From assembly GCA_027486895.1 (NCBI GenBank), contig JAIXOE010000054.1:1-64000 (forward strand): a stretch of 64,000 bases of DNA, written 5' to 3'. The DNA comes from Sphingomonadales bacterium (GTDB lineage: Bacteria > Pseudomonadota > Alphaproteobacteria > Sphingomonadales > Sphingomonadaceae). The position numbers and the translations under genes are program-made. This document shows, piece after piece, positions 26,855 through 29,363 of this stretch. Numbering within the stretch: position 1 is the first letter of the stretch; every line of letters starts with the position of its first letter. Below the pieces are notes generated by a model that saw only the letters and a program-made list of their open reading frames with translations, searched no databases and had not been told where the DNA came from.

Positions 26855-27469
26855 CTATAACCCGGCCTCTACCGCAATGCGGATAGCATCAGCGGTCGTC
26901 GCGGCGCCCAAACGGTCCATCAACAGCGCGCGGTGCATCTTGACCGTCTGCTCGCTAAGGCCAAGCCGGAATGCGATCTGCTTGTTAAGGTGGCCGAGCG
27001 CCATTTCGGCCAAAACCTCCCGCTGGCGGCGCGATAGTTGTTTGACAGCTAAAGCCGCCGCCTCGCGACGGTTTTCGTGCGTTGCTGGAGCACTTGGTTC
27101 AAGTTCAACTTGAGAGCCAAGAAAGAACTCAAGCGCCCCTTCCTCATCGAATATCGGCGCAACGAGGACGGCATTGCGAAACGGCGCACCATCCCGTTTA
27201 TAATTTAGTATCTCGACGAGCACGGGGGCGTGTCGCTCGACGCCGTTGCGGATCGCTTCCGTCAGCCACGGCTCGGTCGCTGGACCGGCCAAGAATTTGC
27301 AGTTCCGGCCAATGATTTCATGTTCCGCATAACCCGTCAGTTCAATAAACGCTGCGTTACAGGCTATAATTGGATTTTCTTTTTGGCGCGGGTCGCTGAT
27401 CACCGACGCTATCGGGCTATTTGCGATCAGAGCATCCAGTCGCTCGTTATTGCGGTCCAGAACAACCAA
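26855..27469 (-). CDS. LOV-domain LuxR-type transcriptional regulator (EL222-like architecture)
   Basis: LOV adduct motif [30 protein letters not shown]-terminal Lux[39 protein letters not shown]. Confidence 0.9.
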
Positions 27470-27653
27470 ATTGCATTGCCTCCTACGTAACCCGTCGGCG
27501 CATTCTTGTGTGCGCCTTCATACCTTTCACTTGCTGACCGTCTGCGGCAATATCGGCAAAACATGGTACAAAGGATAGGTTGCTGCTCCTAGGCCATAGT
27601 TTATCCATTAGCCACCCGATATCCGTAACGGGGTCGCCAAAAGGGGGAACGAC

Positions 27654-28415
27654 ATGGAAAATCTAACATTTGGCCAATATTCATTGGTCTACAACGCATT
27701 CTCATTCACATTTGCAACGATGGCTGCAGCCACGCTGTTTTTGTGGTTCGGCCGTTCACAAGTGGGCCCAGCCTACAAAACGGCACTCACCATTTCTGGC
27801 CTGGTTTGCGCCATTGCCGCATATCACTATTTCCGCATTTTCGAAAGCTGGGAAGGCGCATATTCCATCGAAGGCGGCGTTGTGTCCGCAAGCGGTTATG
27901 CATTTAACGACGCCTATCGCTATGTCGATTGGTTGTTGACCGTGCCATTGCTGCTCATCGAACTCATTCTCGTGATGCGTTTGAGCCAGGAAGAAACGGT
28001 ATCGAAGTCGTTCAAGCTCGGCGGTGCCGCTGCATTGATGATCGTCTTGGGCTACCCAGGCGAAATCGCAACCGACATTCCAACACGCGTATTGTGGGGC
28101 ACATTGTCGGCGATTCCTTTCGTATACATCATGTGGCAGTTGTTTGCGGGCCTCGGCGCGTCGATCAACAATCAGCCTGAAAATGTACGTGAACTGGTGA
28201 AGAAGGCGCGTTTGCTGACCTTCGCATCATGGGGTTTCTACCCAATCGTATACATGATCCCGTACACCAACCTAAGTGGCTCGGACGTCACCGTGGGCGT
28301 ACAGGTCGGCTACACAATTGCTGACTTGATCGCAAAGGCAGGCGTCGGCGTATTGATCTACATGATCGCTGTACGCAAGTCGCAGGCCGAATATGGCGAC
28401 AAGGCCTTCGGTTAA
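27654..28415 (+). CDS. Xanthorhodopsin-type light-driven proton pump
   Basis: Seven TM; H58 (helix B), RYVDWLLTVPLLLIE giving D92/T96/E103 (DTE pump motif), Schiff-base K228 in IADLIAK. Confidence 0.95.
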   Translation: MENLTFGQYSLVYNAFSFTFATMAAATLFLWFGRSQVGPAYKTALTISGLVCAIAAYHYFRIFESWEGAYSIEGGVVSASGYAFNDAYRYVDWLLTVPLLLIELILVMRLSQEETVSKSFKLGGAAALMIVLGYPGEIATDIPTRVLWGTLSAIPFVYIMWQLFAGLGASINNQPENVRELVKKARLLTFASWGFYPIVYMIPYTNLSGSDVTVGVQVGYTIADLIAKAGVGVLIYMIAVRKSQAEYGDKAFG

Positions 28416-28454
28416 GTACTGGACGTGCGCCGCACCGGTGGCGTACATTCCTTT

Positions 28455-29363
28455 ATGAATATAATTTCATATCCGCACATTGCAGGCGCAACATTTTCGA
28501 AAATGTTGCGCCTGTTTGCGTTACCGGCGGCCACACTGCTGCTCATCATTATAGACCGCGTTCTGGGCGGTATGAGCGGCGTTGCGGCGAATATGGTTGC
28601 AGCAATAGCCATTGTGCTGGCGGGCATCCCACACGGCACGCTGGACGTCGAAATCGCCGCTGCGCATTTCGGGCAAAAGGGGATCGCGGGAAAGGCCACG
28701 ATCATCGCCGGCTATATAGGCTGCGCCGCGTTCATGATACTTTTATGGATCCAGCTTCCCGAACTTGCGCTCATTTCATTCTTGCTCATCTCAATCGTAC
28801 ATTTCAGCCGCGATTGGCGCGGCGGCGTGGACCCATTTCTGGCCATGATGGTCGGATGGGCTTTGGTCGCCTTGCCGGCACTGGCCAGCCCCGACGATGT
28901 CGCAATGATATTTGCGGCGCTGACGGGCAGCCAAAACGGCACAGTGATCGCCGCACTGCTTGGCGCGGCATCAGTCCCCGCTGCGCTGGGAAGCCTTGTC
29001 TTTGCCTATTGGGCATTCCGGCATAACGACACGCAAAGCGCACTTGAGGTGTTGGCCTGCATAACCGCAGCTTTGTTCCTGCCGCCACTGATTGCATTTG
29101 CTATATTCTTTTGCGGGCTGCACTCACCGCGTCATATGGCCGACGCGTTAAGAGAAACCGGGGCGCTTTCTCCGCTTAAAAAGGCTGCGATTATCACTGC
29201 GGTGTTCACGCTTTCGCTCGGACTGGGCGTATTGATGTTCGTGTATCAGGGCGAAGTTCCTGCGGACATGGGCATCATCCGTTCGGCATTCATTCTGATA
29301 TCCACGCTCACTGTGCCGCATTTCATCCTCGAGCATATTCTCGCCAAAACGCAGGCTGCATAA
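28455..29363 (+). CDS. blh: Brp/Blh-type beta-carotene 15,15'-dioxygenase; alternative starts GTG 28425 or ATG 28503
   Basis: Multi-TM protein with IPHGTLDVEIA and VHFSRDW / LHSPRHM His motifs; follows rhodopsin gene. Confidence 0.88.
   Translation: MNIISYPHIAGATFSKMLRLFALPAATLLLIIIDRVLGGMSGVAANMVAAIAIVLAGIPHGTLDVEIAAAHFGQKGIAGKATIIAGYIGCAAFMILLWIQLPELALISFLLISIVHFSRDWRGGVDPFLAMMVGWALVALPALASPDDVAMIFAALTGSQNGTVIAALLGAASVPAALGSLVFAYWAFRHNDTQSALEVLACITAALFLPPLIAFAIFFCGLHSPRHMADALRETGALSPLKKAAIITAVFTLSLGLGVLMFVYQGEVPADMGIIRSAFILISTLTVPHFILEHILAKTQAA
28483..28514. repeat. 32-bp perfect palindrome at rhodopsin-blh junction
   Basis: CAGGCGCAACATTTTCGAAAATGTTGCGCCTG is identical to its reverse complement. 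Confidence 0.95.

Follow-up and report, generated by a model that had tools for sequence, protein, structure and literature searches.

The timing of rhodopsin production in bacteria is poorly understood, and to our knowledge few dedicated photoreceptor regulators of rhodopsin genes have been described. The linkage of an XR gene to a photoreceptor gene in Sphingomonas has been on record since Kopejtka et al. 2020 (PMC7762795), where the neighbour of XR is called a histidine kinase. The best comparison for the regulator is EL222 of Erythrobacter litoralis, whose consensus site consists of two RGNCY half-sites with two A/T positions between them (PMC4428443). The EL222-type LOV-HTH proteins share a GxNCRFLQ-like consensus around the photo-adduct Cys (PMC4428443), and a defined operator, C120, is available for EL222 (PMC10521638). 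In synthetic promoters activated by EL222, the operator is placed upstream of the -35 element (PMC9614035). A search of the open-access literature found no paper on LOV-rhodopsin regulation or on an EL222-linked sRNA. The locus described here lies in a stretch of 64,000 nucleotides from a Sphingomonadales genome (the window) and combines a one-component regulator with an operator and a promoter that are both predicted, an arrangement that is directly testable.

The LOV-LuxR, rhodopsin and blh genes

The minus strand of the window encodes an EL222-type LOV-LuxR (GerE) transcription factor of 204 amino acids (26855..27469). The ORF begins with TTG, with GGAGG 5' of the start. Both its PAS_9 and GerE domains exceed the Pfam cut-offs; the GerE HTH (PF00196), with 58 bits against a cut-off of 23.5, follows directly after the LOV domain, and the top PDB match is EL222 (residues 14-204, E 5e-73). 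The photo-adduct Cys lies in GRNCKFLAG, which fits the motif of EL222-type regulators. Exactly 184 bp away, in divergent orientation on the plus strand, is a xanthorhodopsin-type gene (27654..28415; PF01036). Both the LOV-LuxR protein with its photo-adduct Cys and the microbial rhodopsin at this distance had been noted in an earlier sequence-only reading, and coordinates, domains and spacing all check out.

The PDB chains closest to the rhodopsin are psXR, Gloeobacter rhodopsin and xanthorhodopsin. Its pump residues D92, T96, E103 and K228 are invariant across 22 aligned sequences; L100 occupies a further marked position, and G149 aligns with the glycine of the carotenoid antenna site, given as Gly156 in XR and Gly150 in AAP5 in PMC7762795. 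The protein is thus predicted to be a proton pump of the xanthorhodopsin type with an antenna site.

The third gene (28425..29363, plus strand) encodes a Blh-type beta-carotene 15,15'-dioxygenase for retinal supply, with 153.6 bits to TIGR03753 against an NCBIfam cut-off of 95.25 and an additional match to PF15461. The oxygenase recognised in the earlier reading is therefore retained, while its GTG start at 28425 is replaced by ATG 28455 as the more likely one, because GTG 28425 lies within a hairpin and, of the two starts, close relatives retain only ATG 28455. Conservation of this intergenic hairpin (28421..28450, plus strand) extends over the Sphingorhabdus group: it lies between the end of rhodopsin and the blh start, often with a UUCG loop, in the window, L062-L066, L068, L069 and L074, and changes in its stem preserve pairing. 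It is possibly a processing or attenuation element that sets the ratio of pump to enzyme. The closest named relatives at the rhodopsin locus belong to Sphingorhabdus. A lycopene cyclase gene is found elsewhere in the 2.87-Mb window genome, which makes beta-carotene for retinal plausible.

Distribution and phylogeny of the linkage

Among 301 genomes of the family, 23 xanthorhodopsin-like genes (at least 64% identity; window's included) were identified, and 13 of them have an EL222-like gene within about 2 kb. By our own estimate, the chance of such proximity for a pair placed at random in about 3 Mb is roughly 0.2%. In 80 named rhodopsin loci the linkage is encountered also in Sphingomonas, Blastomonas, Brevundimonas, a Caulobacter MAG, Novosphingopyxis and Qipengyuania. 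A scan of related genomes for synteny of LOV-HTH and rhodopsin had been suggested as a check in the earlier reading, and it shows a linkage conserved far beyond the genus. Chance adjacency of the two genes is ruled out by this synteny over many genera.

In the rhodopsin tree, LOV linkage is limited to one alphaproteobacterial clade (100/100 support), 43 of whose 66 genes are LOV-linked. Three architectures occur in this clade, divergent, tandem and downstream, with the divergent form in the window's group and mostly the tandem form in the rest. More distant xanthorhodopsins of the tree show no LOV linkage, and no EL222-like gene is present anywhere in five genomes from other families that carry non-linked xanthorhodopsins (L099, L104, L111, L112 and L114). 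The linked genes are found in at least four places of the LOV tree: the divergent Sphingorhabdus group, which includes the window, a Brevundimonas-Blastomonas group, a Sphingomonas group, and one beside EL222 itself. The linkage label costs 7 changes on this tree, compared with 28 after shuffling. With at least four LOV clades represented among the linked genes, repeated formation or re-formation of the pairing is probable, although the number of re-pairings is uncertain because the deep LOV nodes are weak (66/64). Adjacency persists while orientation, side and LOV lineage all vary, and LOV-rhodopsin-blh is a real, recurrent genetic unit.

The domain structure of the neighbour bears on a different reading, suggested for Sphingomonas AAP5, in which the rhodopsin is a light sensor forming a signalling pair with the adjacent gene product. 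In Kopejtka 2020 (PMC7762795) the proposal was based on a presumed histidine kinase encoded in the same operon, and Gloeobacter rhodopsin is known to bind an HTH regulator (PMC11217422). The neighbours in relatives with the same gene order as AAP5 (S. psychrolutea and others), however, possess PAS and GerE domains without a kinase domain, so a histidine-kinase partner is rejected for these relatives. A kinase domain after the LOV domain is likewise absent from the window protein and from the neighbours in L095, L090, L082 and L110, which are PAS+GerE only. An NCBIfam kinase model matches the LOV protein family through its LOV part only and far below the cut-off, which can explain the published label. 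This re-reading of the AAP5 neighbour is drawn from relatives with the same gene order; if right, it would remove one argument for sensor over pump. The rhodopsin moreover retains the D-T-E pump residues and is followed by blh, and the xanthorhodopsin of S. glacialis supports light-driven energy gain according to a 2025 review (PMC12306673). A sensor pair is accordingly considered extremely unlikely.

The palindromic box and its promoter register

The upstream regions of the tandem loci have in common a 20-bp palindrome, ATAYGGNCYWWRGNCCRTAT, which includes the published EL222 consensus RGNCY-WW-RGNCY; against that consensus alone, the rhodopsin promoters of relatives score mostly 11-12/12. 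Of 32 tandem loci, 26 have a palindrome score of at least 17/20, as do 4 of the 55 loci with no upstream LOV gene (Fisher p 1.6e-12, uncorrected for relatedness), while dinucleotide shuffles have a mean score of 13.6. The pattern was derived from the same tandem loci, and shuffles and non-linked loci serve as its controls. Brevundimonas loci match perfectly (20/20). In scans of 14 genomes of 3-5 Mb, matches with at most one mismatch were found in nine, one per genome and always at the rhodopsin promoter. These nine comprise eight of the ten LOV-linked genomes together with L083, whose LOV genes lie elsewhere; of the remaining linked genomes, L070 is a member of the divergent group, and in Blastomonas L096 the site at rhodopsin differs from the palindrome by two mismatches. 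The reversed pattern, used as a control at up to two mismatches, gave 10 matches in total in the 14 genomes.

The box is set in a fixed register with a promoter. A -10-like TA occurs at offset +22 from the box in 21 of 30 anchored loci and in at most three at any other offset, and G follows the box at +1 in 97% of the 30 anchored boxes, giving with the last T of the box a TnG -35-like element. The box thus abuts the -35 position, and its centre falls near -44, the position of a class-II activator, as estimated from the -10. The same palindrome lies 5-45 bp after the LOV stop codon in many loci, and a perfect palindrome can fold, as a transcription terminator hairpin would. It has no T-run, however, it is followed at fixed distance by a -10, it stands at the rhodopsin promoter in L101 and L083 even with no upstream LOV gene, and it contains the EL222 consensus; a terminator is therefore a very improbable reading, and the palindrome is treated here as a candidate operator.

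Second sites resembling the box (17-18/20) lie 3-5 kb from the rhodopsin box at L103:7869, L102:8226, L090:9909 and L095:8947. In L103, L102 and L090 the site precedes a gene for a FAD amine-oxidoreductase (in L090, after a fasciclin gene), which suggests another LOV target. At L107:1400 there is a perfect 20/20 box after the second LOV gene of the contig, which faces purN. The rhodopsin-linked LOV of L107 has a long branch and a differing upstream sequence, and LOV and box may possibly have diverged together.

The candidate operator and promoter in the window

In a motif-free alignment of the divergent group, the most conserved intergenic stretch of 21 bp is 27562-27582, CATGGTACAAAGGATAGGTTG. 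It ends in an invariant TTG, after which every relative has a 16-bp spacer, TAnnnn and 44-50 bp to the start codon. In the window, this maximum is overlapped by the candidate LOV operator ACATGGTACAAAGGATAGGT (27561..27580, plus strand), a diverged form of ATAYGGNCYWWRGNCCRTAT. It adjoins a putative -35, TTGCTG (27580..27585, plus strand), the TTG of which is invariant in 13 sequences of the group. Beyond the 16-bp spacer is a putative -10, TATCCA (27602..27607, plus strand), at 46 bp from the rhodopsin ATG; the homologous TA stands at a fixed distance in the tandem loci.

The match of the window operator to the palindrome or to C120 is, taken alone, not significant. It scores 14/20 against the general palindrome, which does not exceed the score of the best chance position, and 13/20 against the reverse complement of C120, where two relatives score 14/20; the C120 match is equalled by 17 of 300 shuffles for the window and by 3-4 of 300 for L069 and L003. 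What speaks for the site is instead its register, its conservation and the homology of the regulator linked to it. Against the RGNCY half-sites the window site reads GGTAC-AA-AGGAT (10/12), at the conserved position. When the 21-bp clade motif was run over the 2.87 Mb at up to 3 mismatches, the window operator was the single site and no second operator appeared; the 18-bp form gave one 3-mismatch match, which is at chance level. There is no box 3' of the window LOV stop like that of the tandem loci. A consensus sigma-70 scan of the window found no strong promoter toward the rhodopsin, as is expected if an activator is needed.

The inferred short 5' UTR (27614..27653, plus strand) carries a small hairpin before the ribosome-binding site AGGGGGA. 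Such a hairpin is seen in the window and in L062, L063, L064, L068, L003 and L069. In the group with decayed LOV genes, CUCUCCC-like bases of the 5' UTR can pair with the GGGGGAGAG ribosome-binding site, possibly as translational control.

Loss of the LOV gene in close relatives

The divergent LOV gene is reduced to a remnant with stops and missing parts in S. wooponensis (L062), in the EL138 MAGs L063 and L064, and in L068, while rhodopsin and blh are intact in all four. The promoters of these four relatives have a consensus TTGACA -35 and an altered left half of the box. L069, with an intact LOV gene, already has the TTGACA -35. These observations fit a path from activator-dependent to autonomous rhodopsin expression. 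As four relatives lost LOV and kept rhodopsin, LOV control is dispensable rather than obligatory. A second, distinct LOV-HTH is kept in all eight Sphingorhabdus-type genomes examined and also in the window genome (L153, G000:C43:9083-9652; 55% identity), where it is next to a murA-like gene. L153 has a weak box (15/20) and, downstream, a hairpin with a CCCUCC loop that folds no better than shuffled sequence.

The decay of LOV beside an intact rhodopsin, the diverged window box, the consensus -35 of L069 and the retained second LOV-HTH could all be expected if, in the window's group, LOV were a fading passenger, with rhodopsin expressed constitutively and LOV serving other targets or none. The window and eight relatives nonetheless have a conserved, intact LOV reading frame, and the operator block is the intergenic conservation maximum in the LOV-intact genomes, its left half being altered in 4/4 LOV-decayed ones. 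A fading passenger is thus regarded as unlikely.

Proposed control of the rhodopsin-blh operon

In the mechanism proposed, blue light would produce a Cys-FMN adduct in the LOV domain and release the LuxR-type HTH, and the protein would dimerise as EL222 does. The dimer would then bind the operator at 27561-27580 abutting the rhodopsin -35 and recruit RNA polymerase from a LuxR-like class-II position. Transcription of rhodopsin and blh would rise jointly, so that both pump and retinal would be produced in the presence of light. We consider it probable that the operon is under such a dedicated blue-light switch, with class-II activation by a LOV dimer. Gene content, recurrent linkage, the operator-like palindrome with its fixed promoter register in relatives, and the conserved block of the window are observations; binding by the window LOV protein, light dependence and activation over repression are the parts that we infer. 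XR expression in AAP5, reportedly light-dependent in a PNAS paper of 2022, is not counted as evidence here. The idea in the earlier reading that the divergent neighbour may be regulated by the LOV protein gains an anatomical basis from conserved synteny and from an EL222-type operator in class-II promoter position. Several points count against a dedicated switch: the window box matches the palindrome and C120 poorly, four close relatives have lost the LOV gene while keeping rhodopsin and blh, the second LOV-HTH conserved in the genus could share targets with the linked one, and Sphingomonas XR was almost silent under the conditions of Kopejtka 2020 (PMC7762795).

The LOV protein could also bind the operator but act in the opposite sense, blocking the -35 in blue light and thereby repressing rhodopsin, with the pump made in dim light or in the dark. 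EL222 is activator or repressor according to operator location (PMC9614035), and the box touches the -35. The box is placed, however, upstream of the -35, which is the activating placement with EL222, and not between -35 and -10 (PMC9614035). Furthermore, most linked -35s fit TTGACA poorly, as in activator-dependent promoters, while the LOV-decayed relatives have consensus TTGACA. Repression is judged quite improbable, and activation remains the preferred reading.

A candidate structured RNA downstream of the box

Many EL222-type genes in loci that have no rhodopsin carry the same box with a -10 directly behind their stop codon (L188, L107, L060, L054, L046, L039, L059, L190, L193, L197, L035, L042, L184 and L186). 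In small sequence sets, the approximately 110 nt 3' of the box fold far better than shuffled sequence where the box scores at least 16 (mean z -3.1), compared with -0.4 where it scores at most 14. Unpaired CUCC-rich copies number 3.1 and 0.5 in the same two sets. This region has a long basal stem and CCUCC anti-Shine-Dalgarno loops. Its stems show some compensating changes, and four relatives of the EL222 host group all have the loop UUUCCUCCUGUCCCUCCC unchanged. The leader between box and rhodopsin in Sphingomonas is also often structured. Rfam, at gathering threshold, gave no RNA family except tRNAs in 20 related loci and the window. The region looks like a candidate LOV-controlled small RNA with anti-Shine-Dalgarno loops.

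A wider reading is advanced tentatively, as somewhat more doubtful than not: alphaproteobacterial EL222-type LOV proteins may run a portable light-switch module, composed of the extended palindromic box and a class-II promoter. The target most often linked to it would be a small structured RNA with exposed anti-Shine-Dalgarno loops (CCUCC). Several lineages would have brought rhodopsin-blh under its control, either through tandem insertion or, as in the window, through a box located at a divergent rhodopsin promoter. If true, rhodopsin phototrophy would be under natural control by blue light, with a light-induced riboregulator operating beside it.

Comparison with known systems

Xanthorhodopsin and Gloeobacter rhodopsin are the nearest solved structures to the window rhodopsin, which shares the D-T-E residues and the antenna-site glycine; its pumping and antenna binding are predicted. 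The XR cluster of AAP5 (S. glacialis) is similar in its XR-blh operon, its adjacent blue-light photoreceptor gene and its synteny in some Sphingomonas, but there the neighbour is called a histidine kinase and the rhodopsin is proposed as a sensor (PMC7762795). The available text describes no operator or promoter and does not trace the linkage to Brevundimonas, Caulobacter or Sphingorhabdus. The Sphingomonas linkage itself was thus known; what is new here is that the neighbour is read as LOV-LuxR, that the linkage extends widely, and that a candidate operator stands in a defined promoter register.

The window regulator is a full-length homologue of EL222 with the same LOV and LuxR-HTH layout and photo-adduct Cys, and its relatives have the EL222 consensus at the predicted target promoter. 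It differs in that its gene is paired with rhodopsin-blh and its candidate operator deviates from the RGNCY half-sites. A natural target type is thereby proposed for EL222, a widely used optogenetic tool. The optogenetic promoters pBLind and BLAT have the EL222 site directly upstream of the -35, as the candidate box here; those promoters are engineered, whereas the arrangement described here is natural and conserved.
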